This document shows, one piece after another, positions 2,403 to 26,336 of a stretch of 34,629 bases of DNA. Source of the stretch: a virus; IMG/VR virus record IMGVR_UViG_3300026521_000428, positions 1 to 34,629 of that record; one strand, given 5' to 3'. The notes under the pieces were generated by a model. That model saw only the letters and a program-made list of their open reading frames with translations. It did not search any database and had not been told where the DNA came from. Both the position numbers and the translations under genes were made by a program. Within the stretch, counting starts at the first letter, position 1. Each line of letters opens with the position of its first letter.

Positions 2403-2647
2403 GCAAAGATGTTAAAAATATAGAGGTACTTATCAGAACTAAAGGCGGTAGAGAACATTTTATAATGATTACTAAAAATGAATTAGAAAATGAATATGCA
2501 GATGGATTTAATAATTTAAGTAAATTATCTAGTTTATCTTTTATTGTACAACATTCAGATAGAGTAGTTTTTTTATCTATAATGCCATCAGAAATAGAAT
2601 CAATTAGCGTAACAACTTTAAATAAAGATTATCCAGAGGAAGAATAA
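2399..2647 (+). CDS. Hypothetical small protein, 82 aa
   Basis: A short soluble protein starting MSKDVKNIEVLIRTKGG. The ATG overlaps the previous stop by four bases and an AAGGAAAAATT site precedes it. The predicted pattern is beta-rich (IEVLIRTKGG, LSSLSFIVQHSDRVVFLSIMPSEIESISV), consistent with a small beta domain. The stop overlaps the start of the MBL-fold gene at 2647, so the three genes from 1821 are translationally linked. Function unknown. Confidence 0.7.
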   Translation: MSKDVKNIEVLIRTKGGREHFIMITKNELENEYADGFNNLSKLSSLSFIVQHSDRVVFLSIMPSEIESISVTTLNKDYPEEE

Positions 2648-3456
2648 TGAGATTTATACAATTAGGAAATGGTGGCGGATTAGATCCAACTGCTACCAAC
2701 AGTAGTTTTTTAGTCCAGGTAAAAGAAGATGAATATCTATTATTCGATTGTGGTTTTAATGTTATGCAAAAACTTATAGAATTACAGGAAGAATCTTTGC
2801 AAAATAATGAATATTTTCATATTTCGAAAATTAAATATGTTTTCATTTCTCATATTCATGATGATCATGTTGGAAATGTAGAAACGTTAATGTATTGGAA
2901 TTATTTTAAAAATAATGTTTCTATAACTTGGCTATACGCTAACGAAGAGGTAAAAGATTATTTAAAAATGAAGATGGAACCAAAATTATATAATGGTGGA
3001 AAAGTAGATAATTATTCTATTGTTCAATCTAGTATTAGATCTGTTTCTGGAGACAACAAATTTCCATATAGAATTACTCGGCCAGAAGGTGGAATGTTAA
3101 ATAGTTCTACTACTATTAAATTAGTTTCCTTATACGAAACTTTTCATGGTGGATGCGAATCAAATGGTTTGGTAATAATTAAAGAGTTTGATAATGGCGA
3201 TTCAATCGAAAAAACAAGTTTTGTTATTTCCGGAGATACTAAAGCATCGGTATACTTAGAAGAAGAGATATTATATAAAACATCAAACTCTTCTCGTACT
3301 ATAATATATCATGATTTTAGCGATTGGAATTGTCCAAGTAAAAATGTACATGCCTGTAAATCAGATATTGATAGCGAGTACTCAGAGGAATTTATAGAAT
3401 CTTTAATTTGGTATCATAATAATGGCGTATTTAATCGTCGTTGGCAAGATTGGTAA
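2647..3456 (+). CDS. Metallo-beta-lactamase-fold hydrolase, possible Apyc1-like cyclic-nucleotide phosphodiesterase
   Basis: A metal-binding HxHxDH motif is clear (H69, H71, D73, H74 in SHIHDDHVGN). It follows an LLFDCG strand typical of RNase Z/Apyc1-type MBL proteins and an N-terminal MRFIQLGNGGG strand-loop. Further candidate ligands are H167 (ETFHGG), D197 (ISGDTK) and H222. At 269 residues it is the size of a single MBL domain and has no extra exosite arm. Family knowledge: phage Apyc1 proteins are MBL phosphodiesterases that destroy cCMP and cUMP of Pycsar defence; other MBL relatives are RNase Z or PqqB-like. Which of these applies cannot be decided here. The gene is last in its operon and is followed within four bases by a UUCG terminator. 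Confidence 0.8.
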   Translation: MRFIQLGNGGGLDPTATNSSFLVQVKEDEYLLFDCGFNVMQKLIELQEESLQNNEYFHISKIKYVFISHIHDDHVGNVETLMYWNYFKNNVSITWLYANEEVKDYLKMKMEPKLYNGGKVDNYSIVQSSIRSVSGDNKFPYRITRPEGGMLNSSTTIKLVSLYETFHGGCESNGLVIIKEFDNGDSIEKTSFVISGDTKASVYLEEEILYKTSNSSRTIIYHDFSDWNCPSKNVHACKSDIDSEYSEEFIESLIWYHNNGVFNRRWQDW

Positions 3457-3515: not shown

Positions 3516-5498
3516 ATGGAAAATAATATCCAAGATTTCGAAAATAAATTAATTCAATTAAATAATCAATTTCATATCAGTACAAAAATCAAAGAAAATT
3601 TAGAAAATGAAAACCAGGTTTTTTTAAACAATTGTACTGGTATAGAAGAGGAATTAAAATTATTAAATGATACTAAAATGCTTTTGGAAACTTTAAAAAT
3701 TCATAAACTTAAAGAGAAAAAAGATTTTATATTAAATATAGTTAATACTGCTTTAGTAGATATATTCCAAGATAATATTAAAATAGCTATCGAACCTCAA
3801 GAAGGTAAAGGTAAAGTTAATACAAGTTCAACTCAAAAATTCGATATAATTTTTTATCAAAATGATATTGAATTAGCTAGAAATGAAGAATTACTTATTT
3901 CTAATGGTGGTGGTATAATGCAAGTTGTATCAATGCTTTTTAAATTATTAATTGGTTTTATTTATTCTAAAAATACTTTTTATATGTTTGATGAAAGTTT
4001 TAGTCAATTAAGTCAAGATAATAGAATCCGTCTTAGTAAATTTTTACAAATGTTCTGTGAGCAATATAATTTTACTATAGTTGTTGTTTCACAAGTACTT
4101 GATCTAGATGAATACGCCGATATTATTTATAGTGTAAATGCTAAATATGATGACAATGGTGTTCGAGAATTAGTATTAGAGGATTCTAAATTTAAAGAGG
4201 GTATATTCGAACGAAATGTTCAAGTCGGTGAGGAAGGTGTTTGGCATATAAATATTAAAAATTTTCAAAGTATTAAAAATATAGATTTACGGTTTAAAGG
4301 ATATACTGTAATACGTGGACCAAATAATTCTGGTAAAAGTGCTATACTTAGAGCAGTTAGTTCAATACTTTATAATTCTTTCAATGTAAAAAAATATCCT
4401 CGTAAAGCCGGTGGTTTAGATACAAAAGGTAATCCAAGTAAAAAAGTTTTAAATACCGAAATAATTTTAGAAAAAACTTATCTTAAAAGTTTACATGATG
4501 AAGATGGAAAATGTGAAATAATTAAAAAACAAGTTGGATTACGTTATAAAAGTTCTAAAGTATCCTTTGTTATAGAAGGTGAAGAATACTATGGAAAGAA
4601 TTTAGCAGCTGAAAAACTTATGGAAAAGATTGAAGAACTTGGATTCAAGTACATTAATTTAAAAGAATTCTATAAGAACTTCAAAGGTAATTTAAAAGAT
4701 CAAACCGAAAGAATCGCAAGTACTACTCAGTACGACGGATTATTTCTAGTAGGTTCGAAAGGTAATGAAACAGAAAAGATTTTTAATTTTTTATTTAATA
4801 CTGAAAATATTACTAAAGCTATTCTAAAAGTAAAAGAAGATATGATGCTTTTATCAAAGAATCATGAAACTAATCAAGAACGTATTCTTGAAAATACCTC
4901 TAAAATAGAAAAAGTTAATAATGAAATTAAGTACTATTTAAAATTATATTATTTAACAATTATTGAAAATTTATCTTTATTCGATACAAAAGGATTAAAA
5001 GATTATTTAAATAATCTTAATTTTGGAATCGATACTAGAAATCAAATTATTTCTATTTATCAAAATAATTATGGCTTATTTAACGAAGATTTTAAAAAAA
5101 TACAATTAATAAAAGAGCAGACTAGAAATTTTAAAATCAATGAGGAAAAAGTAAATTTTAAAATTAATAATATTAAAAATATAATTATTAAATTTGAAAA
5201 GTTAGCTTTATTGAAGGATTATGAAAAAAATTTACAAAAGGACCATTATCCATTGTTGAATAATAATTCCAAAAATATTTTAATGATGGAAAAATTAATA
5301 GATAAATTGGAAAAATATAAAAATTTGATAATTCATTTTAATGAATATTCGGCTCTTTTTTCTAAATTAAAGAATTTAGAATTATATTTGGAACCCGTAT
5401 TAAATAAAAAACAATTGTTAGATATACAATTTAAATCCAAATTAATGCCATGTACTAAATGTTCAGGCAAAGGATTTATACCAATAAAAGGAAAATAA
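3516..5498 (+). CDS. Circularly permuted Rad50/SMC-like ABC ATPase
   Basis: The two halves of an ABC-type SMC head appear in reversed order. Residues ~1-70 are a coiled coil; then come a signature-like SNGGG (129-133), Walker B TFYMFDE (154-160) and a switch-like TIVVVSQ (187-193). After a linker comes a strand leading to Walker A GPNNSGKS (268-275), followed by a long second coiled coil (~430-640). The protein ends with CTKC (C646, C649), like half of a Rad50 zinc hook. In Rad50/SbcC/T4 gp46 the order is Walker A, coil, CxxC, coil, signature, Walker B, so this is what a permutation at the hook would give. Rad50-type ATPases work with an Mre11/gp47 nuclease on DNA ends; no such nuclease gene is in this window. 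The start has AAAAAAGGAAAATA upstream. The stop overlaps the next start. Confidence 0.8.
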   Translation: MENNIQDFENKLIQLNNQFHISTKIKENLENENQVFLNNCTGIEEELKLLNDTKMLLETLKIHKLKEKKDFILNIVNTALVDIFQDNIKIAIEPQEGKGKVNTSSTQKFDIIFYQNDIELARNEELLISNGGGIMQVVSMLFKLLIGFIYSKNTFYMFDESFSQLSQDNRIRLSKFLQMFCEQYNFTIVVVSQVLDLDEYADIIYSVNAKYDDNGVRELVLEDSKFKEGIFERNVQVGEEGVWHINIKNFQSIKNIDLRFKGYTVIRGPNNSGKSAILRAVSSILYNSFNVKKYPRKAGGLDTKGNPSKKVLNTEIILEKTYLKSLHDEDGKCEIIKKQVGLRYKSSKVSFVIEGEEYYGKNLAAEKLMEKIEELGFKYINLKEFYKNFKGNLKDQTERIASTTQYDGLFLVGSKGNETEKIFNFLFNTENITKAILKVKEDMMLLSKNHETNQERILENTSKIEKVNNEIKYYLKLYYLTIIENLSLFDTKGLKDYLNNLNFGIDTRNQIISIYQNNYGLFNEDFKKIQLIKEQTRNFKINEEKVNFKINNIKNIIIKFEKLALLKDYEKNLQKDHYPLLNNNSKNILMMEKLIDKLEKYKNLIIHFNEYSALFSKLKNLELYLEPVLNKKQLLDIQFKSKLMPCTKCSGKGFIPIKGK

Positions 5499-5965
5499 TG
5501 GATATAAAAAAACAGGAACAGGAATATTTAAAATCTTCCCAATTAAACGAAATTTTAGATTATGAGGAATTTTTAAAAATAATTGATATTATAGATTCAA
5601 AATATAAAAATATCTCGGAAGATAAAATTTTTTTATTATTATTAAAAGAGGCGGGTAATCTTATAGAAAATATTCCAAAACGCGATGTGATTATACTAAA
5701 GTTGATAAATATGTTTAAATTAATAAGCCTACTATTTATTAATAAAGGCGAGCCAGAATTGGTTTATAATTTATTTGGTACGTATATTAAATTAGCCGAA
5801 GCTCCAAATTTTGAAACCAATTTAGAAACTTTATATTCGACCGCTTGGGATAATTTTATTATCCCAATAAGTATAAAACAACCCCAATTAATATTAATAA
5901 AATTTCTTGATTTTTGGTTTGGTTTGGGATTAACTTGGAATACTATTAAGAGTACTATTAAATAA
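5498..5965 (+). CDS. Hypothetical helical protein, 155 aa
   Basis: I chose the ATG at 5498, which overlaps the TAA of the SMC-like gene and has AAAAGGAAAATA before it, rather than an in-frame ATG 13 codons upstream that lies inside the SMC gene. The protein is almost entirely alpha-helical by composition, with long Leu/Ile-rich segments (for example DKIFLLLLKEAGNLIENI), amphipathic rather than clear membrane spans. Tight coupling to the SMC-like ATPase makes a partner subunit possible, but there is no nuclease motif and I do not recognise the family. Confidence 0.75.
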   Translation: MDIKKQEQEYLKSSQLNEILDYEEFLKIIDIIDSKYKNISEDKIFLLLLKEAGNLIENIPKRDVIILKLINMFKLISLLFINKGEPELVYNLFGTYIKLAEAPNFETNLETLYSTAWDNFIIPISIKQPQLILIKFLDFWFGLGLTWNTIKSTIK

Positions 5966-6005: not shown

Positions 6006-6482
6006 ATGAAAAATCAAAAAGAATTAGTATCTTTAGAAATCTTAACTTTTAGTGAGGATGTTACTGGATACTCGGAAGAAGAACTTAGAGAAAAATACCG
6101 AAGTTTTAAAGAATCGTTTACTTTAATAGATGACCTTTCACAACCATATGTAATTAGAACAGTTGTTGGCGATCATAAAGATATTAGATCACTTGAACCA
6201 GAAATGATTCCGGAATGCGATAGATTTGAAGTATCTGAAAGCGTTCAAGATATTTTAAAAAATAACGAACTGCCGGTTTATAAAAGTGAGTTCGATCAAA
6301 ATAATATTGCTAATATTGCAAGTATTAAAGAACAGCAGTTAAATGCGGCTATTAAACAAGAAATGTTAAATGGTCTTAAAGCTATGGAAGATGGAAAAAT
6401 TAATCCTGATATCATTAAAGAGGCTAAAGGATTATCTGATAAAGTTATTGTCAATATTTCCGATGAAAAAACCGATAATTAA
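6006..6482 (+). CDS. Hypothetical protein, 158 aa
   Basis: ATG with AATAAGGATTAAT upstream, after a 40-bp AT-only gap. The protein is acidic and soluble; the N-terminal half is mixed (SLEILTFSEDVTGYSEEELREKY) and the C-terminal half is helical (IKEQQLNAAIKQEMLNGLKAMEDGK). Its last 20 bases are overlapped by the homing endonuclease gene starting at 6463. Since homing genes usually enter near conserved targets, the natural neighbour of this gene may once have been the 507-aa gene at 7593. Function unknown. Confidence 0.75.
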   Translation: MKNQKELVSLEILTFSEDVTGYSEEELREKYRSFKESFTLIDDLSQPYVIRTVVGDHKDIRSLEPEMIPECDRFEVSESVQDILKNNELPVYKSEFDQNNIANIASIKEQQLNAAIKQEMLNGLKAMEDGKINPDIIKEAKGLSDKVIVNISDEKTDN

Positions 6483-7596
6483 ACATATAGAAGATTTTAA
6501 AAAAGTACACGCCGATAAATATTCATACGAGTATTTATCGGATGAGATGTATTTAAATACTAAGCAATTGTTACCGATTTTATGTAAAAATTGTTCTAAA
6601 ATATTTTACCAAAATGCCAATAATCATAAAAGCGGTAAAGGTTGTCCGGTTTGCAAAATTCCAAAACTAAAAAAACCAAGGAAAAGAGTTTCTGAACATA
6701 TAGAAGATTTTAAAAAAGTACATCTAGATAAATATGATTATTCATTAATAAATGAAAAAAATTATAAAAGTACGGATATAAAAGTACCAATAATTTGTAA
6801 ACGGTGCAATGAAGTGTTTTATCAAAAACCAAATGCTCATAAACGAGGAAACGGTTGTCCAAAATGCAAAATAAAAAAGACTAGAAAAAGCGTTTCAGAA
6901 CATATAGAAGATTTTAAAAAAGTACATCTAGATAAATATGATTATTCATTAATAAATGAAAAAAATTATAAAAGTACGGTTTACAAATTACCGATAATTT
7001 GTAAACGGTGCAATGAAGTGTTTTATCAAAAACCAAATGCGCATAAGATGGGACATGGTTGTAAAAAATGTTCTATATTAAATCAGAAAAAATCTAAAAG
7101 TTATTATATAAAAAAATTTTTAAAAATACACGGTGATAAATATAATTATAATCTATTTAAAAATTATTCTTTTGCTAGAGATAAAATAAAAATAATTTGT
7201 AATAATTGCAATTGTGTTTTTGAAACCAGTGTATTGAATCATGTTTCTGGAGTTGGCTGTCCAAAATGTAATTCTTCGAAAGGAGAATTTAAAATACAAC
7301 AATATCTAAAAGAAAATAATATTAAATATTTAAAAGAATATGTGTTTAAAGAATGCTGTAATATAAAACCTTTACGGTTTGATTTTTATTTACCAGATAA
7401 AAATATTTTAATCGAATATGATGGAGAACAACATTTCAAACCAGTAGAATATTTTGGAGGAGAAGAAGCCTTTAAAAGAATACAAAAAACCGATAAAATT
7501 AAAACAGACTTTGCTAAAATAAAAAATATACCGTTAATTAGAATAAAATATAAAGACTTTGATAAAATAGAAAAAATACTAGGAGATATTAAATGA
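6463..7596 (+). CDS. Vsr-like (EDxHD-type) homing endonuclease with four zinc-ribbon/treble-clef repeats
   Basis: Four repeats of about 65 residues each begin with HxxxFxxxHxDKYxY and carry two Cys pairs, CxxC and later CPxC/CxxC (for example ICKRCNEVF...GNGCPKC); this kind of module binds DNA in phage endonucleases. The C-terminal ~100 residues hold a PD-(D/E)xK/Vsr-type nuclease core, with RFDFYLPDKN and IEYDGEQHF as the likely metal-binding strands. I placed the start at MKKPIIKHIEDF (6463), where the first repeat begins; a longer frame upstream lies inside the previous gene. There is no convincing ribosome binding site, so translation may depend on the gene before it. The stop overlaps the start at 7593. 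Repeats 2 and 3 are almost identical in DNA, and the C-terminus closely matches the endonuclease at 32858-33988. Confidence 0.85.
   Translation: MKKPIIKHIEDFKKVHADKYSYEYLSDEMYLNTKQLLPILCKNCSKIFYQNANNHKSGKGCPVCKIPKLKKPRKRVSEHIEDFKKVHLDKYDYSLINEKNYKSTDIKVPIICKRCNEVFYQKPNAHKRGNGCPKCKIKKTRKSVSEHIEDFKKVHLDKYDYSLINEKNYKSTVYKLPIICKRCNEVFYQKPNAHKMGHGCKKCSILNQKKSKSYYIKKFLKIHGDKYNYNLFKNYSFARDKIKIICNNCNCVFETSVLNHVSGVGCPKCNSSKGEFKIQQYLKENNIKYLKEYVFKECCNIKPLRFDFYLPDKNILIEYDGEQHFKPVEYFGGEEAFKRIQKTDKIKTDFAKIKNIPLIRIKYKDFDKIEKILGDIK
6688..7095 (+). repeat. 204-bp near-identical tandem duplication inside the homing endonuclease gene
   Basis: Unit 1 (6688-6891) and unit 2 (6892-7095) each encode one 68-residue zinc module. 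The first ~85 bases differ by a single base, and most of the rest is also identical, while the first and fourth modules of the gene are much more diverged. This is a recent in-frame duplication of one DNA-binding module. Confidence 0.85.
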
Positions 7597-16090: not shown

Positions 16091-18799
16091 TTAAACTTCT
16101 TTTATTTTTACGCTTATTTTACTTCTTACTTTTTTAATAAAAGTTCTCATCAATATTACAATTTCTTGATCTAAATAAAGATTTAACATAGTATTCAAAT
16201 TAGAATGATTATATATATTCAGCATATTAAATTTTAAAGTTTCCTCGTTTTTAAAACTTTCTAAATTTTTATTTGATTCGTCAATACAATTGTATTTATC
16301 AAAATCAGAGGTTGGTAAAATTAATAATTGTCCTATTAAAGTTAAATCGTCCTCTTCAGAAATATTATGTGTTTCCGCATCTATGAAATATTTTCCAGCC
16401 TTTAAAGATTTTCTATCTAATTCTTTCCAACTATCATCAATAATATTATTATCGATTTCTAAAATTTTAAAAGAAGTAAATGAATTTATTTCCGATACTT
16501 TTGGATATTCCTCCACCTCTGTATTATTATCATTTATATTATCCAATTCTGATTTAATACTGTTAATATCGTCATTGATAGTAGTTATATCTTGTTTAAC
16601 AATATTTATATTATTCGATAAAAGTAATTCTTCCTGTTTTGCGCGCGAAATTTCTAAAGTTAGTTTATTAGAATTATCTAAAATATCTTTATTAAATTTT
16701 TTAGCTATAGCTGGTAAAGCATCTTCATTTTCTAAATTAATACTATTTAGAATTTTAATAGTTTCCTCTAATTTTTCCGAATCGGTTTCGTTTAAATTAA
16801 TAATATCGTTTAATTTCTTTTTTTCTTCTTCTAAATCGGTTTTTACTAATTCGATATTTTGATTAAGTTCTAATTTGGATTTTTCCAAATCATTTTTTAT
16901 TATCGATTCTTGTTCCACTGCTCGAAAATTTTCATTTTCTATCGCTTTATTAATTAGATTAAATTTATTTTCGGTATCTGATTTAAGAAGTAATATATTA
17001 TCGTTTAATTTTGTATCCGTTTTAATTAAAGAATCTTTGGTTATTAAATTTTCTTTTTGGAAAGCTTCTACTTTTGCTTCCATAGTTTCCATATCCAAAT
17101 CTATTTTTGAATTAATCGTTATTATATCCGATTTTCGATCCTTAATCTCCTCGTCAATTACCGAAATAAGATAAGTTTCCTCTTTTTTAGCCCTATCTAT
17201 TTCTAATTCTAAATAAGTTTTTAATTCCTTTAATTCATTTTCTAAAGAACTTTCAGAACTTTCAGAACTTTCAGAACTTTCAGAACTTTCAGAACTTTCA
17301 GAACTTTCAGAACTTTCAGAACTTTCAGAACTTTCAGAACTTTCCTGAACTTCGATTAATTTCTGAGAGACTAATTCAAGATTATTTTCTAAAAAGCTAA
17401 TTTTTTCTAGAATTAGCTTTTTATCATTTTCTCTTAAATCTGCTTCGGTTGTTAATTTATTTTCCAAATCAATAAAATTAAGTCTACAACATGTCTCTTT
17501 AATATCATCTATCTGATCTTGTAGATCATTCTCTTTATCTGTGGCTCTAGAAATTTCATCATCTATCTGATCTTGTAGATCATTCTCTTTATTCGTGGCT
17601 CTAGAAATTTCATCATCTACTTTTAAATCTATTTCTTTTTCTCTTTTTGAGGCTCTTGCCGTCTCAATATTTAATTGATTTTGTATAGTTTCCTCAGATG
17701 ATACCGCGCGAAGTTCTTCGTCATCTACCCGTTGATTTAACTTCTCGATTTCTTTATTATTCGATACTACATATCCAGCAAAAATATCATCATTTTCTAA
17801 ATCAACCTTTTCTATAAAATCCACTATTTCCTTAAACGAATCCTTGTCGGCAACACTCAAATCCAAAATATTATCTATTCTTTCTGTTTGAATTAAAAGA
17901 TTATTTTTAATTTCTAAATCGGATTGAATTCTCAATTGTTCTTCATTTTTTAAATTAAATAATAATCTATTGTTATTTTCGTCTATTTCTTTTTGTAATT
18001 CATCTTCTCTTGTTTTTGCTCGTATTTCTTCTGCTTCTAAATCATCCGAGCATTGTTCTTTATAATCTTCTAAAGAATTATTCAATTGTTTTTCAATTTC
18101 TTTAGCTCGGTAAATTTCAGCGTTTAATGACGATTCTATATTTAACTCGGATGTAATTGCTCTATCTTTTTCAAGTTCTAAATTTTTCTGAAGAGTTTCT
18201 TCTTGAACTTTTGCTCGCTGAATTTCAAAATTTAATGAATCAATAATACTAAGTTCTTTATTGGTTGCTCTCTCGGTCTCGTCGGAAATTAATCTTTTTA
18301 TTAATAAAAGCTGTTCATCCATAATTTTTTTATCAGCTTTGGTTTCTTTTAAATTGTCAATTTGATCCTGAAGAGAAGACCGAACTACTTCTATAGAATT
18401 ATTAAAATTTAATTCCAAATCCTGAATAAGTTTTTGAGCTAATAATTTATCCATTTTTTTATCATCTAAATTTAAAATTAAAGCTATTAATTCATTCTTT
18501 AAATTTTTTAAATTATCAAGTGCGATAATTTTATCCATTTTTTTATCATCCATATCCGAATATTTATTATTAAATTCTTCGGTCATTGAATCAATTTTAT
18601 CTAAATATTCCAATTGAGTGACAAAATCTTTTACAGCTTCCGCAAATTTTTCGTCAATTGTTTTGCTAGTTTCATCTTGAATAGTTAATATAAAATCCTT
18701 TATTTCTTCGGCTTTTGTTTCCAGATTCGAATAAACTAAAGCGATTTTATTATTCATATACGTGCTTATTTCCGTAGCTAAATCCCCAAGTAATGACAT
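16091..18799 (-). CDS. Long coiled-coil tail fibre-like protein, 902 aa
   Basis: The first ~760 residues are nearly continuous coiled coil built of short degenerate repeats (DxEIxRAxxxExxL, IxTARASKREKEID). The module SVADKDSFKEIVDFIEKVDLEND matches one repeated in the 2391-aa protein and in fibres of other myoviruses. A run of SES tripeptides (about residues 485-518) comes from a 9-bp minisatellite. The last ~140 residues (from YPKVSEINSFTSF) are globular and could be a tip or attachment domain. AAAAGGAACACT precedes the ATG. By location and design it is a fibre or whisker trimer. Confidence 0.75.
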   Translation of the reverse strand: MSLLGDLATEISTYMNNKIALVYSNLETKAEEIKDFILTIQDETSKTIDEKFAEAVKDFVTQLEYLDKIDSMTEEFNNKYSDMDDKKMDKIIALDNLKNLKNELIALILNLDDKKMDKLLAQKLIQDLELNFNNSIEVVRSSLQDQIDNLKETKADKKIMDEQLLLIKRLISDETERATNKELSIIDSLNFEIQRAKVQEETLQKNLELEKDRAITSELNIESSLNAEIYRAKEIEKQLNNSLEDYKEQCSDDLEAEEIRAKTREDELQKEIDENNNRLLFNLKNEEQLRIQSDLEIKNNLLIQTERIDNILDLSVADKDSFKEIVDFIEKVDLENDDIFAGYVVSNNKEIEKLNQRVDDEELRAVSSEETIQNQLNIETARASKREKEIDLKVDDEISRATNKENDLQDQIDDEISRATDKENDLQDQIDDIKETCCRLNFIDLENKLTTEADLRENDKKLILEKISFLENNLELVSQKLIEVQESSESSESSESSESSESSESSESSESSESSESSLENELKELKTYLELEIDRAKKEETYLISVIDEEIKDRKSDIITINSKIDLDMETMEAKVEAFQKENLITKDSLIKTDTKLNDNILLLKSDTENKFNLINKAIENENFRAVEQESIIKNDLEKSKLELNQNIELVKTDLEEEKKKLNDIINLNETDSEKLEETIKILNSINLENEDALPAIAKKFNKDILDNSNKLTLEISRAKQEELLLSNNINIVKQDITTINDDINSIKSELDNINDNNTEVEEYPKVSEINSFTSFKILEIDNNIIDDSWKELDRKSLKAGKYFIDAETHNISEEDDLTLIGQLLILPTSDFDKYNCIDESNKNLESFKNEETLKFNMLNIYNHSNLNTMLNLYLDQEIVILMRTFIKKVRSKISVKIKEV
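17247..17345 (-). repeat. 9-bp minisatellite encoding Ser-Glu-Ser repeats
   Basis: Ten exact copies of GAACTTTCA (as read on the + strand) plus a partial eleventh, encoding a run of SES. The unit length keeps the frame, so copy number can vary without breaking the fibre. Confidence 0.95.
17391..17422. repeat. Perfect 12-bp inverted repeat inside the 902-aa gene
   Basis: 17391-17402 pairs with 17411-17422 around an 8-base loop, entirely within coding sequence. Confidence 0.85.
17504..17611 (-). repeat. 54-bp tandem duplication in the 902-aa gene
   Basis: Two adjacent copies (17504-17557 and 17558-17611) differ at a few bases only and encode an 18-residue coiled-coil unit with the DEISRAT and DLQDQIDD motifs. 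This shows that the fibre grows by in-frame duplication. Confidence 0.9.
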
Positions 18800-19160: not shown

Positions 19161-22100
19161 TTATAAGTTTTGTAAAATAAAGGCATCGTCAAATGAACTA
19201 GATGTCCCAAAATTTGGAGATGTTTTTGCAACTGCTAGAGTTTCATTAATTGCTTGAACTAAATCGTCTTTATTTTCAGTATCTAAATCCGTTAAATCTC
19301 CAATTTGTTTTTGTAAATCGTCATCTCGTTGAACTATTTGAGTATCTAAAGTAATTAAACTATTTTTCATAGATAAATCGTCTATGAAATTAGAATTTTC
19401 AATATTCAAACTATTATCTGATTCTAAGCCTAAACTTAAGCGGACTTGATCGTCATTTAACGTTCTATTATATATTTCGTTATCCAATGTTTCGGATAAC
19501 TTTTTTATATCTTCAATATTTTGAGAAATATTCTCAAAATTTGAAGTAATTTGAGATTGTAATAAATCCTTATTTGTTTTTATTAAATCGTTAATAATTT
19601 CTACATCATCTATACGTTTCTGAATTTCTTGATTTAAATCATTGGTTAATTTTTGAATATTTAAATTGGTTTTATTATCATTATCAAATATAACTTCGTC
19701 TAATTTATTTAAACAGTTATAAAGGCTGTCGATATTATTTAAATAATGAGAATTTAAATATGGGACGAATTCTCCTAAAGAATTTAATCCAGAACCAGAA
19801 ATAATATTATTTTGAATTTTTAATAAATCCGAATCATTTTCTTTAATATATTCTACTAAATTTTCTAATGATCTTAAATCAACTTCGGAATTAATTAATA
19901 AATCATCAATAATTTTTCTAATATCTTGAACCTGTGTTTTTAAATCAGTTTCTGAAGTATTTAAAGATGCCAACATTTCCTGAAAATCATTAATTTTTAC
20001 AGATACCATTTCATACTTAGAGGTAATGTCTTGATCAAGATATGCAAATTCTTTGTATAAGGTATTTGTTTTTGTATTTATTATTTCAGTTGTCGAATTT
20101 AAAATAGTTTCTGTTTTTTCATTAGATTCGTTTATAAATCCATCTAGTTTACTTATGGTATTAAGTATATCTGTTTTATTAGAAACCAGTTTTGAATCTA
20201 TATTTGAATATTGCGAATTTCTTAAAGCTATTTCTTTTTCTAAATAACTATTCGTAGCATTTACTTTATTATCAAAAGTTTCCAGAATATTTTCAAAATC
20301 ATTAATTTTTAAATTTACTAAATTTAAAATATCATTGGTTATTTCTTTTACCAATTGTGTATTTTCATCTAATGATATCTGAGTATCGGATCGCAATCTA
20401 ATAATTTTAGCTTCTAATTCCAATTCTTTAGTTTGAGCTCTATTAAATTCCTGTACTACCTTATCGTTGATTCTTGAATCTACCGTATTTAAAACTGATT
20501 GTACGTCGAATGAATCTACAGAAGTTCCAGCTGTACTACCTGTACTACCAACAATTCCGACTATATTTCCATTTTCAATATCTGTTTTAATTTCATCATA
20601 TATTTCAGAACCAAGTTCGTTTAATCTATTTAAAGATGTTTGAATAGCAATACTTAAATTATCAAAATCCTCTACTCCCGGCCCAATAAGTTCTAAAAAT
20701 CCATTAATTGTTTCATTAATATTTGCCGTAAATGTTTTTATTTCATCGGTATTAGTATTAATAAAATTATTAATGGTTTGTAGCATAGAATCGGTTACAA
20801 AAGTTCGGTTAATTATCTCTTTATTAAGCGTATTGTTTAAAGTTACTAACTTATCTAACACTCCCCCGGATTGAATATCAATATTATTTTGTAATTCTTT
20901 TCTAAGATCGAGAATTTCTTTTTGTCTATTATCCGTTTCAGCTATAATTTTTAAATTAACTGTATTAAAATCGTTAATTCGGAAAGTTTTTTCATTTTGA
21001 ATAGCTATATCGATATATGATTTTAAACTATTATAAAACTCATTTTTAGATTTTAATTCGCTTGTTAATTTAGCACTTAACGAATCAATTTCTATTTGAT
21101 TATCATCTCTCACATTTTGAACAGAACTTAATAAAGAATTTTTTAAATCATTTATACGATTTGTATAATTTTCAGTACTTATAGTAATTAAACCAAGGGC
21201 TTCTGATTTAATAGAATTAATTTCTCTTATTATTTCGTCTTTATTTTTAATCATATCCGAATTAACGTTTGAAATTTTAAAATTAATATCATCCTTAATA
21301 TTACGAATTATATCGTTTTCCGGATCGATAGTATTTAAAACATCGACTATTTTTTGAAATTCTTCGAGATCGAATTCTGCTCCATCGAGAATACTTTGTA
21401 TTTTTTCATCTAAATTCGTTATCGTATTATCGATTTCGTCATTCTTATTACCAACATCGGTTTTAAAAGATTCTATTTCATCCTTAATTTCGGTATCTAT
21501 AGTTTCTCTAATAATTGATTCCTCGTTTATTAAAGCTTGTAATGATGTATCGAGATTCGATATTTTATTATTTGTATCATCCAATCCTAAATTAAGTTTA
21601 GAAATTGTTTCGTTTTGTTCTGCTATTTCATCTTTAATTAAAGCAGTATTATCGTCACATTTATTTTGTATTTCTAATGACACATTGTTTAAAATTTCTA
21701 GAACCGAGCTATACTTATCTTCGGAAGTATTTATAAAACTATTTAAATCGTTTCTTAATTCGGTTACGTAAAATTTTCTATCATTAACTTCTGTTAATAG
21801 ATCATTATTAACAGAAGTTATTAGAGTTCTAATGTTTTCAAAATCATCATTAATTGAATTAATAATATTCTGAGTTAATTTATTATTATCGGTTATAGTT
21901 TTAATAATATCGTCTTTAAATTCGGAATTTATTTGAGCGATTTGTACTTTATTATTTTCAAAATCTTGAGTTAAGATTTTATAGTCTGATAATCTTTCCC
22001 GAATCTCATTATTTAATTCCGTTCTAATTAAATTATCTTCTCCAATTCTAGTATTTGCTTCGGAATTAAGTAAGGTATGTAATTCATCTATACTATTATA

Positions 22101-25100
22101 AACAGTTTTACTAAAATTTAGTAAATTTGTATCATTTTCGAAATCCGATTTTCTAATTAAATCAACTATTTCTTTAAATGAATCTAAATCCTCTGAACTT
22201 CCATCAAAAACATTTTTAATAAGTTCCTGTATTTCTGATAGCTCCGTTTTTAATTCATCATCTACTATTTTTCTTTCCTGAATCTCCGCATCTAAATTCT
22301 CGGTAAAGTTCGTTGTTAAATTGTAATTTTCTTGGATTCTATCGCTAAGATTTCCCTCAGCTATGAGTCTATCATTAATTTCAGAATTTAAATTATTTTT
22401 AATATTTTGATCTTCTGTAGATCGATCGGAAATTTCTTGGTTAACTTTTTCTGTTAAATTTTTAATATCTTCCATTCGATTAAAAATTTCAGAATTTAAT
22501 TTGTCAGTAGTAGCACTGTTCCAATTATCCTGATAGGTTTTATTATCCGAAATAGTTTTCGACATTGAATTATTTACGGTAATCCTATCTGAAATTTCTT
22601 GGTTAAGAGTTGTTTTAATTCCATCCGTATCCGAAATTCTGTTAGCTATTTCAGAATTTAATTTTTCTGTTATAATAACATCTTTTTCTTTATAATCATT
22701 TTCAATAGATGATAGACGATTAGCGGTATTGGCTTTTTCGGTGGTCATTGCATCCTTAACTTCTTTAAAAGAATTTAAACTTGCATCCGAATCAGCCATA
22801 ATTTTAGAAATATCCGATGTATTTGCATTTACTTGATTTTCTAATTCCAAATCTTTTGAAACACTTCTGTTTATTTCGTTAGTTACAATCGTTTCCAAAC
22901 TATTTACTTGATTTTTTCGATCAGTTATTTCAGTATCTATTTTTAATAAGGTATTTTCGTAATGTTCCTGTTCAATATTTGCATTATCTAAGATTTTTTT
23001 ATCAAAATCTTTAATATTTTTAGATATTTCGGTATTAATTAATTCAATGTTATTAACAGTTTCCGAATATTGATTTATTCTTGTTTGTATTTCCGTATTC
23101 AATGTATTTGTAAGATTTGAGTCTTCCTCAATTCTAGCAGATATTTCGTTATTGATTTTAGTATCTAATTCATTATTAATTTCTATTAATTTATTTGAAT
23201 TTTCTAATATATCATTTTTTAATAATTTATCTTGACTTTCACGAGTTGATATTTCATTAATTAAATTAGAATTATTTAGACCAATTCTTTGATTTAGTTC
23301 ATCGGTAGTTATTTTTATTTTATTTTCCAATGTATTATTATCATTCTCGGCCTTAATTACCGATTCTGTAATTTTATCGGTTAGTTTATTCTCAGTAGTA
23401 GAAATTGTTTGAAAAATATTTTCTAAAGTATCGTTTCTTGTACCAAAGAAGGTATCTATTTTTAAAAAAATATCATTTAGTTTTTTATTAAATTCGTCAT
23501 GTTGAGAATTATTATTAAGAAATAAATCTTGAACATCATCATTAAATTTTTCAAATTTTGTCGAAAATTCGGTTTTTGTCTCATTAATCAAATTTAAAAA
23601 ATCTGTAATTTTGGTATCTATTTTAAGATTTGTATTCGATATCAATTCTTCGATATTTTTTAAATTAGTATCCATATTGGTGATTACAGTATTTAATCGA
23701 CCTTCTTGAATTTTAATTAAATTTTCTAAATTAATTTTCTGTTCATTAATAATATTATCCAACTCTTGGATAGCATTCATTCTGTCTTTTATCTCTTGAG
23801 ATATCATATTGGAAAAAGATTCCATATTTTCCAGTCTGGATTTGGTTTCGTTTTCGATACTTGTTTTTAGTATTTCGTCTTCCGCCATACGAAAATCAGT
23901 TTCTTTATTTAAATTATTTAAAATAGTATTTTTAAATAATTTAATATCGTTTATTAAATCTGTTAACATGGTTTCTTTTTCACCAGATAATTGACTTATG
24001 TAATCAATAACTTCTTTAATAGAATTTAACGATTCATCTGTACCATCCAACATCGAATTTAATTTATCAGTTTGTATTTTTATTTCTTCTTCTAATCGTA
24101 AACCTTGTTTAATTCTTTCATCTATTTCTTGAACTAACTTATCATCTAGATTTTTTATAGCTAATGATCTAGCTTCATATTCGTTATTGATACTCGTATT
24201 TAATTCATTTTGTACGCTATCGAAAGTATCCTTAATAGTATTTACCAATACTGTGTTCGCATTTATATCGCTAGTAAGAATATTAAAATTTGATTCGATT
24301 AGATTTTGTAACTCGTTATCTTTTGATTTTAATTCTTCGGAAAGTACTGTTAAAGCGGTATTTATTTTTAAATCATTGTCTACTATTAAACTATAATTAG
24401 TATCTAATTTATTTTCAATACCAGAAAGTTGTAAATTTTTTTCTTCGATCTTTGTTAAAAAATCAGTTTGTAAATTTTTTACTATTGTTTTTAAATTTTG
24501 ATCTACTATTTGGATATCTTCTGTTTTTTCTAACATCTGTTTTTCGAGAATAGATACTCGTAAATCCATAGAGTTACAGCTAATTTTTAAAGCGTTGTCT
24601 ACAGACGTAATTTTAGATAATAAATCGTTATACGAATTTGTAATAGATATAGATAAAGATTCTAAATTTATATCGGTTAGATTTGCCCCACCAGTAATCT
24701 GTAAAATGTTATCATTCAAACGATTAAGATAATTTCTTAAATCTGTTATATTAGTATAATTTAAATCCAAAGCGTTTTGAGCGGTTGTTAAAGCATCCTG
24801 AACTTTATTAGAAAGAATTAAATTATTGTCATTGATATCTTTGAGAATAGTCGCTTTATTATCAACAATAGTATTATTTAAATTATTAATATTTTCTATA
24901 TTTTTACTAATTGAATTTTGTAAAGTTAGTAATTGCTCCTGAATATTCTCAACTGTTAAAGCATTTTCTTCTAAATCGTTTTCTCCAATCAATGATTCTG
25001 CATTAATTAATCTAGTTTCTAAATTGGATAGTTCTGTATTTACGTTAAATAACTTTTCTTGTAAATCATTGGTTTTATTTTCTACTAATTCAAAAACAGT

Positions 25101-26336
25101 CTCGTAATTTAAATTAGAAGTTTCCATAGCGTTATCAATTCTTGCTAAAAGATCATTCTTTATATTTTGTATTTCATCTGTGTTTTTAGATACTAAAGAA
25201 GTTAAATCCGCAAATTGATTAACTAAATCTTCGTTGGTTTTATTTAAATATTCAATTGCATTTTTAATTTGATTATCTAAATCTTCAAAGTTTTGACTAT
25301 AATCTATAGCTTCTAGATCCTTTGTAAATTTATTTACAAAATCATTTATTTTTATTTCTAAATTATTATCAGAATCGATTCTATTTTTAGATTCGAGTTC
25401 TACAAGATTAAAAACTTTAATATAATTATCGTTTATTAATTTTATTATATTTGCATAGTTTGTTTTTATATCTTGTTCTTTTATATTAAAAATACTTATG
25501 AAATCATCCAAATCTGTTCTCAATTTCTGTAATGTTTCATCTACTTTAGTCTCTATTTTAGAAATATCGTTGTTTAAATTTTTTATATCTAAACGACGTT
25601 CCGTTATTTCAGTGATAATATTTTCTTCGTTTTTCTTAATTAATACCTCTAGACCAGAAAATTGAATATCTAAATTTATTTTTAGTTTTGAAAAGTAGTT
25701 GCTAAGTTCGGTTACACTATCAGCAGTTTTTTTATTTTCTATACTAAGAGCATTAATCAAATCTAAATTTTCTTCCGTGCCTAAGTTAGTGATTTCCGAA
25801 ATTATATTTAATTTCGTTTCCAAATCGGATTTATTTAAAACAAGATACGATAATTTAGTTTCCTGTAATAATAAATCATTTTTTATATCGGTTATTAAAT
25901 TTAATAATTGAGTATAAGAACTATTTATCTTTATTTCCGAATTTGTTTTTAAATTGTTTATATCTGTATCCAATGCAACTTTATCAGCCTTCATATTAAT
26001 ACGACTGGATAAATCCGTATTAACCGTTTCGATTTTAGTATCCATTAATTGAATATTATTATCTACTAATCTTCTATCATTTTCAATAACCGTTCTTAAA
26101 TCGTTTTGGTCTAGTGTTTTTAACGCGGTATTTATAATATTTATACTATTTTGAATATTATAAATACTGGTATTAAATCTTTCATCCGTTTCTCGTAATA
26201 AAAAACTTTGGTTTTTCGTTTCGCTTTCTAAAAATTCCATTTTAGTAATAGTATTGTTTAGAGTTGTTACACAATCCGTTTCGCAAGCAACCACGGAATC
26301 ATTTATTAATTCGCAAATTTCGTTTGTATCGGCCAT
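19161..26336 (-). CDS. Giant coiled-coil tail fibre protein, 2391 aa
   Basis: One uninterrupted 7.2-kb frame. The protein is coiled coil for nearly its whole length with many Asn and short NxLNxEIxxRxxxE repeats. At least six copies of a phage-fibre module break the coil, for example DGTDESLNSIKEVIDYI, ADSDASLNSFKEVKDAM, DGSSEDLDSFKEIVDLI and DGAEFDLEEFQKIVDVL. A Gly/Ser/Thr-rich collagen-like spot (GNIVGIVGSTGSTAGTS) lies about 80% along. Three Cys residues sit near the N-terminus (C8, C18, C22). The last residues (SPNFGTSSSFDDAFILQNL) show no enzymatic or binding motif. AAGGAAAAAAATT precedes the ATG. It is likely a very long trimeric fibre or whisker attached to the baseplate proteins encoded next to it. 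Confidence 0.78.
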   Translation of the reverse strand: MADTNEICELINDSVVACETDCVTTLNNTITKMEFLESETKNQSFLLRETDERFNTSIYNIQNSINIINTALKTLDQNDLRTVIENDRRLVDNNIQLMDTKIETVNTDLSSRINMKADKVALDTDINNLKTNSEIKINSSYTQLLNLITDIKNDLLLQETKLSYLVLNKSDLETKLNIISEITNLGTEENLDLINALSIENKKTADSVTELSNYFSKLKINLDIQFSGLEVLIKKNEENIITEITERRLDIKNLNNDISKIETKVDETLQKLRTDLDDFISIFNIKEQDIKTNYANIIKLINDNYIKVFNLVELESKNRIDSDNNLEIKINDFVNKFTKDLEAIDYSQNFEDLDNQIKNAIEYLNKTNEDLVNQFADLTSLVSKNTDEIQNIKNDLLARIDNAMETSNLNYETVFELVENKTNDLQEKLFNVNTELSNLETRLINAESLIGENDLEENALTVENIQEQLLTLQNSISKNIENINNLNNTIVDNKATILKDINDNNLILSNKVQDALTTAQNALDLNYTNITDLRNYLNRLNDNILQITGGANLTDINLESLSISITNSYNDLLSKITSVDNALKISCNSMDLRVSILEKQMLEKTEDIQIVDQNLKTIVKNLQTDFLTKIEEKNLQLSGIENKLDTNYSLIVDNDLKINTALTVLSEELKSKDNELQNLIESNFNILTSDINANTVLVNTIKDTFDSVQNELNTSINNEYEARSLAIKNLDDKLVQEIDERIKQGLRLEEEIKIQTDKLNSMLDGTDESLNSIKEVIDYISQLSGEKETMLTDLINDIKLFKNTILNNLNKETDFRMAEDEILKTSIENETKSRLENMESFSNMISQEIKDRMNAIQELDNIINEQKINLENLIKIQEGRLNTVITNMDTNLKNIEELISNTNLKIDTKITDFLNLINETKTEFSTKFEKFNDDVQDLFLNNNSQHDEFNKKLNDIFLKIDTFFGTRNDTLENIFQTISTTENKLTDKITESVIKAENDNNTLENKIKITTDELNQRIGLNNSNLINEISTRESQDKLLKNDILENSNKLIEINNELDTKINNEISARIEEDSNLTNTLNTEIQTRINQYSETVNNIELINTEISKNIKDFDKKILDNANIEQEHYENTLLKIDTEITDRKNQVNSLETIVTNEINRSVSKDLELENQVNANTSDISKIMADSDASLNSFKEVKDAMTTEKANTANRLSSIENDYKEKDVIITEKLNSEIANRISDTDGIKTTLNQEISDRITVNNSMSKTISDNKTYQDNWNSATTDKLNSEIFNRMEDIKNLTEKVNQEISDRSTEDQNIKNNLNSEINDRLIAEGNLSDRIQENYNLTTNFTENLDAEIQERKIVDDELKTELSEIQELIKNVFDGSSEDLDSFKEIVDLIRKSDFENDTNLLNFSKTVYNSIDELHTLLNSEANTRIGEDNLIRTELNNEIRERLSDYKILTQDFENNKVQIAQINSEFKDDIIKTITDNNKLTQNIINSINDDFENIRTLITSVNNDLLTEVNDRKFYVTELRNDLNSFINTSEDKYSSVLEILNNVSLEIQNKCDDNTALIKDEIAEQNETISKLNLGLDDTNNKISNLDTSLQALINEESIIRETIDTEIKDEIESFKTDVGNKNDEIDNTITNLDEKIQSILDGAEFDLEEFQKIVDVLNTIDPENDIIRNIKDDINFKISNVNSDMIKNKDEIIREINSIKSEALGLITISTENYTNRINDLKNSLLSSVQNVRDDNQIEIDSLSAKLTSELKSKNEFYNSLKSYIDIAIQNEKTFRINDFNTVNLKIIAETDNRQKEILDLRKELQNNIDIQSGGVLDKLVTLNNTLNKEIINRTFVTDSMLQTINNFINTNTDEIKTFTANINETINGFLELIGPGVEDFDNLSIAIQTSLNRLNELGSEIYDEIKTDIENGNIVGIVGSTGSTAGTSVDSFDVQSVLNTVDSRINDKVVQEFNRAQTKELELEAKIIRLRSDTQISLDENTQLVKEITNDILNLVNLKINDFENILETFDNKVNATNSYLEKEIALRNSQYSNIDSKLVSNKTDILNTISKLDGFINESNEKTETILNSTTEIINTKTNTLYKEFAYLDQDITSKYEMVSVKINDFQEMLASLNTSETDLKTQVQDIRKIIDDLLINSEVDLRSLENLVEYIKENDSDLLKIQNNIISGSGLNSLGEFVPYLNSHYLNNIDSLYNCLNKLDEVIFDNDNKTNLNIQKLTNDLNQEIQKRIDDVEIINDLIKTNKDLLQSQITSNFENISQNIEDIKKLSETLDNEIYNRTLNDDQVRLSLGLESDNSLNIENSNFIDDLSMKNSLITLDTQIVQRDDDLQKQIGDLTDLDTENKDDLVQAINETLAVAKTSPNFGTSSSFDDAFILQNL
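21785..21820. repeat. Perfect 14-bp inverted repeat inside the giant fibre gene
   Basis: TAACTTCTGTTAAT (21785-21798) pairs with its exact complement at 21807-21820 around eight bases, wholly within coding sequence. Confidence 0.9.

Follow-up and report, generated by a model that had tools for sequence, protein, structure and literature searches.

The chain of a canonical Rad50/SbcC protein runs from an N-lobe through an arm to a CxxC hook motif in the middle and through a second arm to the C-lobe, an order that all comparators checked here show, as an earlier note on this DNA had stated. The arm and hook of Rad50 are thought to couple ATP-driven movements of the head to DNA tethering through a continuous hairpin. 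Fusions of Mre11 to Rad50 are also known, in Mimivirus R555 and others (PMC3175470), and they are a different event from the permutation described here. In the open-licence literature, no description of a permuted or split Rad50, SbcC, or SMC protein was found, nor was a paper on the split SbcC operons described next.

In the Bacillus phage vB_BboS-125 (gp32 to gp36 region), gp32 is a 471-aa protein comprising the N-lobe and arm, with CPLC nine residues before its end, and it is accompanied by a 78-aa coil protein, by gp35 (211 aa), which consists of a short arm and the C-lobe, and by an SbcD-like phosphoesterase. The same gene set (phrog_16465 N-half, phrog_18563 coil, phrog_15167 C-lobe, and SbcD-like) is present in 31 phage, prophage, and Bacillota loci (L017-L047), some of them near-identical and one of them (L017) vB_BboS-125 itself; CxxC lies within the last 20 residues of the N-half in all 31, and the halves are fused in none. 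C-lobe matches below 1e-12 occur in 65 of 398 Bacillota genomes, nearly all as ORFs of 210-250 aa, and in each of the 20 genomes inspected, the C-lobe gene follows an N-half with CxxC in its last 30 residues and has an SbcD-like gene nearby, again with no fusion (0/20). The two sets comprise 51 split operons, some near-identical, with a terminal CxxC on the N-half in 51/51 and fusion in 0/51; the separate C-lobe protein is ~215 aa, and the SbcD-like nuclease gene lies beside it. SbcC is also split in Microcystis phage Mvi-JY20, the 485-kb phage LR745208, Tunturiibacter phage Tunturi_5, and Microbacterium phage Magritte; in some of these the two halves lie at distant sites, and the Magritte N-half lacks CxxC. 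SbcC is thus often divided at the hook, and a terminal CxxC is a normal feature of the split form. The split operons (L017-L047 and L102-L121) are widespread in Bacillota genomes and phages, with the ~77-aa coil protein in the phage set. Long C-lobe ORFs in three Bacillota genomes were considered as further fusions and rejected, as they hold phosphoesterase, N-lobe, and C-lobe in canonical order. The loci L099 (2764-4818), L100 (4652-6754, minus strand), and L101 (4583-6670, minus strand) each encode a phosphoesterase and an SbcC head in one chain that has hardly any arm and in which no CxxC hook is apparent.

The window analyzed here, a 34,629-nucleotide stretch of DNA from a large bacterial virus (IMG/VR record IMGVR_UViG_3300026521_000428), carries a gene in which these parts stand in the order C-lobe, N-lobe, arm, and CxxC, which is not the canonical Rad50/SbcC order. 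The ORF (3516-5498, plus strand) starts with ATG and encodes 660 aa in one frame without an internal stop. Its features and the genes on either side are as follows.

2647..3456, plus strand: metallo-beta-lactamase (MBL)-fold hydrolase directly upstream (Lactamase_B, 8.9e-11; at 5128-5937 in L002 and 5149-5925 in L003).
3516..5498, plus strand: permuted SbcC/Rad50-like ATPase gene (same order at 6001-8034 in L002 and 5977-8034 in L003).
3519..3767, plus strand: N-terminal arm helix leading into the C-lobe, residues 2-84 (AlphaFold2 helix; aligns with the start of free-standing C-lobe proteins).
3768..4193, plus strand: C-lobe of the ABC head, residues 85-226 (phrog_15167, 3.7e-10; profile A5 to 3qkr_B, 2e-12; VIA Z 8.7-8.9 to 9a9j_B).
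3900..3914, plus strand: ABC signature SNGGG, residues 129-133 (alignment with DRGGG/DNGGG of split C-lobes).
3978..3995, plus strand: Walker B FYMFDE, residues 155-160 (D159 and E160 invariant in profile A5).
4080..4094, plus strand: switch position VVVSQ, residues 189-193 (alignment with split C-lobes).
4194..4241, plus strand: linker between C-lobe and N-lobe, residues 227-242, a novel junction (past the ends of split C-lobes and ahead of the starts of split N-halves).
4242..4763, plus strand: N-lobe of the ABC head, residues 243-416 (AAA_23, 3.7e-9; profile A6 to Rad50 5f3w_B, 1.4e-17; VIA Z 8.8-10.3).
4317..4340, plus strand: Walker A GPNNSGKS, residues 268-275 (computed motif position).
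4764..5444, plus strand: fast-evolving C-terminal helical arm, residues 417-643 (AlphaFold2 helices of low confidence; dN/dS about 0.45-0.6).
5445..5495, plus strand: terminal CxxC tail with CTKCSGKGF, residues 644-660, a hook candidate (CxxCSGKGF kept in 3/3 fused proteins).
5498..5965, plus strand: downstream gene with no significant family match, whose start overlaps the ATPase stop (TAATG, 5496-5500).

The motif positions given in the earlier note, with signature and Walker B ahead of Walker A, came out the same when recomputed, and a D-loop, SQLS, follows Walker B at residues 163-166. The same note had the chain ending with CTKC; the CxxC does lie near the C terminus (residues 646-649), but 11 residues, SGKGFIPIKGK, still follow it. 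When the window protein is shuffled, a CxxC falls in its last 20 residues with a probability of 0.0009.

Both halves of the protein are related to Rad50-type heads. Residues 7-211 match phrog_15167, annotated as an ATPase, and residues 245-472 match Pfam AAA_23; Pfam and NCBIfam detect the P-loop half only, and permuted proteins of this kind are likely to be overlooked by annotation pipelines. Against the PDB, the C-lobe profile A5 retrieved Rad50 C-terminal half-chains (2e-12) and SMC C-halves (about 1e-7), and the N-half profile A6 retrieved Rad50 (1.4e-17); both profiles include split relatives and are evidence at the level of the family, of which the window protein is one member. The AlphaFold2 model of the full chain (30 sequences; pLDDT, 65.8; pTM, 0.53) has a helix at residues 2-84, an alpha/beta C-lobe at 85-226, and an N-lobe at 243-376, with both lobes mostly above pLDDT 70, followed by arm helices of low confidence at 417-486, 492-574, and 584-643, and its pLDDT falls under 50 at 644-660. 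Beyond the head, where an SMC hinge was sought, only helices and the CxxC tail are predicted, with low confidence. A head-only model (residues 52-455) reached a pTM of 0.67 and a pLDDT of 63.6. The top Foldseek matches include the free-standing Rad50/SMC C-half chains 1f2u_D, 3qkr_B, and 5h66_B. By VIA, model residues 40-225 superimpose on the Rad50 C-half 9a9j_B (Z, 8.7; 165 aligned; rmsd, 3.6) and residues 240-415 on SMC/Rad50 N-halves (Z, 8.8-10.3), and the head-only model gave the same two ranges, the C-lobe Z to 9a9j_B being 8.7-8.9 across the two models; Foldseek and VIA align in sequence order, which confirms each half and cannot match both permuted lobes together. Each lobe is thus modeled with a Rad50/SMC-type fold, while the packing of the lobes, the arms, and the position of the tail are not predicted confidently. 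The profiles and the structures of each half support the earlier reading of a Rad50/SMC-type ATPase with its head halves in permuted order, and residues 1-240, for which an unrelated fold would have refuted that reading, hold a Rad50-type C-lobe in both the profiles and VIA. By homology, the two lobes likely close into one ABC head, of which the models (pTM, 0.53 and 0.67) fall short of proof.

The same motif order and the terminal CxxCSGKGF were found in the same neighborhood of two other IMG/VR contigs (65.9 kb and 114.4 kb), which answers the suggestion that phage genomes be searched for this order with two viral contigs and brings the known fused members to three, all on metagenomic viral contigs. 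The window ATPase shares 78-79% protein identity with its two relatives. Among the three proteins, pairwise identity is 93-96% in the C-lobe, 88-92% in the N-lobe, 62-94% in the linker (residues 227-242), and 52-59% in the C-terminal arm, and the dN/dS values for C-lobe, N-lobe, and arm are 0.04-0.08, 0.14-0.21, and 0.45-0.60, respectively. The low values in the C-lobe and N-lobe indicate that purifying selection acts on the two lobes within a single frame. Both tail cysteines are conserved in 3/3 fused proteins despite the fast-evolving arm that precedes them. Scans of viral contigs with the window protein, alignment A1, and a DNA pattern for GGGIMQVVSM returned only the two relatives, and a scan of genome contigs with alignment A1 returned no further fused member. 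Among phages, vB_BboS-125 was the only tblastn match to the window protein; plasmids gave no match to the C-lobe, the Microcystis phage C-lobe gave no additional locus as a query, and no part of a mixed C-lobe alignment was sufficiently conserved for scanning.

The most likely role of the protein appears to be that of a permuted SbcC partner of an SbcD-like nuclease, which is encoded elsewhere in the two related genomes. In both of these, a phosphoesterase gene lies 13-15 kb upstream (L055, 7513-8550, in G002; L056, 6936-7973, in G001), within a T4-like topoisomerase region; the window record is a fragment that starts downstream of this region, and the gene is not seen there. The split-system SbcD profile matches the two genes at 1e-18 to 1e-19 and a nearer phosphoesterase at 3e-5 (database size of 1). 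In PHROGs, phrog_1649 comes out slightly ahead of SbcD for at least one of the SbcD-like copies. From these profile matches, the distant phosphoesterase of G001 and G002 is identified as SbcD-like with moderate confidence. The nearer phosphoesterase, three genes upstream in L002 and L003, was considered as SbcD and rejected, as it belongs to phrog_1649 and its score with the split-system SbcD profile is far below that of the distant gene. The three fused-gene records showed no second SbcC, and no convincing match to the 77-aa coil protein (phrog_18563) was found in these three incomplete records. By analogy with gp46/gp47, the ATPase and its SbcD-like partner may process DNA ends in replication and recombination.

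An unlikely alternative is that the ATPase works with the adjacent MBL-fold hydrolase (2647-3456) as a module of SMC-like ATPase and MBL nuclease. The MBL-fold gene occupies the position directly upstream in 3/3 records, and an MBL-fold gene and RecT are likewise found close to the SbcC-like genes of Listeria phage B054 and Virgibacillus phage Mimir87, but the matches of the MBL protein to nuclease families such as RNase Z are weak, and both related genomes hold an SbcD-like phosphoesterase. The SbcC-like genes of B054 and Mimir87 (L014 and L015) are in canonical order. Farther along the window, a 408-aa homing-endonuclease-like gene (6370-7596; phrog_559, 5.7e-94) separates two genes that are direct neighbors in L002 and L003, and it overlaps with the end of the upstream gene. 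On the minus strand, the window encodes two very long, coiled proteins of 902 aa (16091-18799) and 2391 aa (19161-26336), the former with a run of SES repeats.

As to the origin of the permuted order, the most economical account is that genes for a split C-lobe and a split N-half were brought into the order C, N and then fused. The split C-lobe profile matches window residues 5-215 at 66 bits over profile positions 3-206, and a profile from only four non-Bacillota split C-lobes still gives 48 bits on the window protein. The N-half of the window protein aligns with split N-halves from their first strand onward, and CxxC ends both. Fusion of separate genes is favored because residues 5-215 span whole free-standing C-lobe proteins and the rest corresponds to the CxxC-ending N-halves. 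Since a terminal CxxC is normal in split N-halves, that of the window protein is not a by-product of the permutation. The arm ahead of the C-lobe has 60-84 residues and the arm past the N-lobe about 225, which argues that the protein is not simply an opened Rad50, as the return arm is mostly missing. The proposal that the protein was opened at the hook and its old ends joined therefore holds for the resulting permuted order, whereas fusion of two separate genes fits better as its origin, and the claim that such an opening would produce "exactly this arrangement" is too strong for arms so unequal and a hairpin so incomplete.

A true circular permutation of a canonical one-chain Rad50/SbcC, opened at the hook through duplication or internal rearrangement, would yield the same final order, and canonical one-chain SbcC does occur in phages with related topoisomerase genes. 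This path is nevertheless quite improbable, and fusion of split genes is considered clearly the better-founded origin: residues 5-215 cover the free-standing C-lobe proteins fully, PHROGs assigns the C-half to the split family phrog_15167, and the arm lengths are unlike those of an opened hairpin. A profile of five canonical C-lobes gave no match to the window protein, a weak control given its divergent sequences, and comparison of a re-ordered copy of the chain with a canonical full-length profile was uninformative. Unfused C-then-N neighbors, the expected intermediate of a fusion, were not found, and the split operons run N before C. Descent from a T4 gp46-like protein, hinted at by the T4-like topoisomerase, was rejected, as the SbcC of Campylobacter phage F207 and that of a huge phage are canonical and not permuted.

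A function in defense or counter-defense, as an ATPase of the GajA, OLD, or Lamassu kind rather than a replication and recombination enzyme, is very unlikely. PADLOC does match the N-lobe to MADS3, OLD, GajA, and LmuB and the MBL-fold neighbor to LmuA, but the matches fall mostly in the generic P-loop region, and the C-lobe groups with SbcC-type proteins that adjoin SbcD-like genes. The window also encodes a NADAR-domain protein (844-1824; PF08719, 1.8e-50; PADLOC PDC-M42C, 1.9e-42), which possibly counters host defense. An assembly or reading artifact that merged two genes is extremely improbable, for the fused frame and linker are common to three contigs with about 22% protein divergence, even though the window record has a suspicious join elsewhere, near 126-136, where it lacks about 330 bp that L003 contains. 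At that join (1-300), a phosphoesterase gene is truncated: positions 1-136 match L003 at 93%, and with 126-298 the match picks up again about 330 bp farther on, so that a deletion or an assembly join removed the end of the gene.

The gene product is thus probably a single-chain SbcC/Rad50-type ATPase whose split halves were fused in swapped order and which works with an SbcD-like enzyme. Along the chain, a short arm would lead into the C-lobe, which carries the signature and Walker B, and a linker of ~16 residues into the N-lobe, which carries Walker A, followed by the long arm and CxxC. Within one chain, the two lobes would assemble into an ABC half-head. A pair of chains would enclose two ATPs, each held between the Walker A of one chain and the signature of its partner, as in Rad50. 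In Rad50, the end of the C-lobe and the start of the N-lobe both lie in the head, so joining the former to the latter should be geometrically easy if the window protein packs its lobes in the same way. The switch residue is Gln193 in 3/3 fused proteins and His (LITHN) in most split C-lobes; with Gln in place of His, ATP turnover may differ. The long arm might fold back on itself, stay mostly unpaired, or pair with another protein, and in split operons the 77-aa coil protein may pair with it. The CxxC tails of two chains could share a zinc ion or bind a partner, replacing the hook. The two conserved tail cysteines per chain are half of a putative tetrahedral zinc site, as in Rad50; the description of the tail as "half a zinc hook" names no more than what any Rad50 monomer brings, and for the conserved CxxC near the C terminus, zinc binding would be putative. 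With the SbcD-like metallophosphoesterase, the ATPase would process DNA ends during phage replication and recombination.

Whether the protein is a working permuted Rad50/SbcC that arose by splitting and re-fusion, builds its head from swapped halves, and dimerizes via a C-terminal CxxC without a full return arm is evenly balanced. If so, SbcCD function would not depend on a covalently unbroken hook hairpin. The hairpin is cut just after CxxC both in the window protein and in the widespread split operons. The swapped fusion is a natural test of which links are needed, namely, head closure, arm pairing, or the hook, and splitting followed by re-fusion in the other order is a plausible path to circular permutation in the SMC superfamily. 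These observations suggest that the ancient Rad50/SbcC machine is separable at the zinc hook and can be re-joined the other way round.

Compared with known systems, the window protein shares the head motifs, the folds of the two halves, and one CxxC per chain with canonical Rad50/SbcC (E. coli SbcC, T4 gp46, and Listeria phage B054 gp49), whereas its halves are swapped, its CxxC stands at the end rather than in the middle between two arms, and its arms are unequal. The head lobes of SMC proteins and RecN score alike in structure, but the window protein shows a terminal CxxC and the permuted order, and a hinge domain is not seen in its low-confidence model. Mre11-Rad50 fusions are likewise SbcCD modules re-fused in evolution; they join the nuclease to the ATPase, whereas here the ATPase itself is permuted. 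With the split SbcC operons, the window protein shares homology of both halves over their lengths, the CxxC end of the N-half, and the same short arm at the start of the C-lobe protein; in the operons, however, the halves are separate genes with the N-half first and the SbcD-like gene adjacent, whereas the window protein is one gene with the C-half first, and in its relatives the SbcD-like gene is distant.
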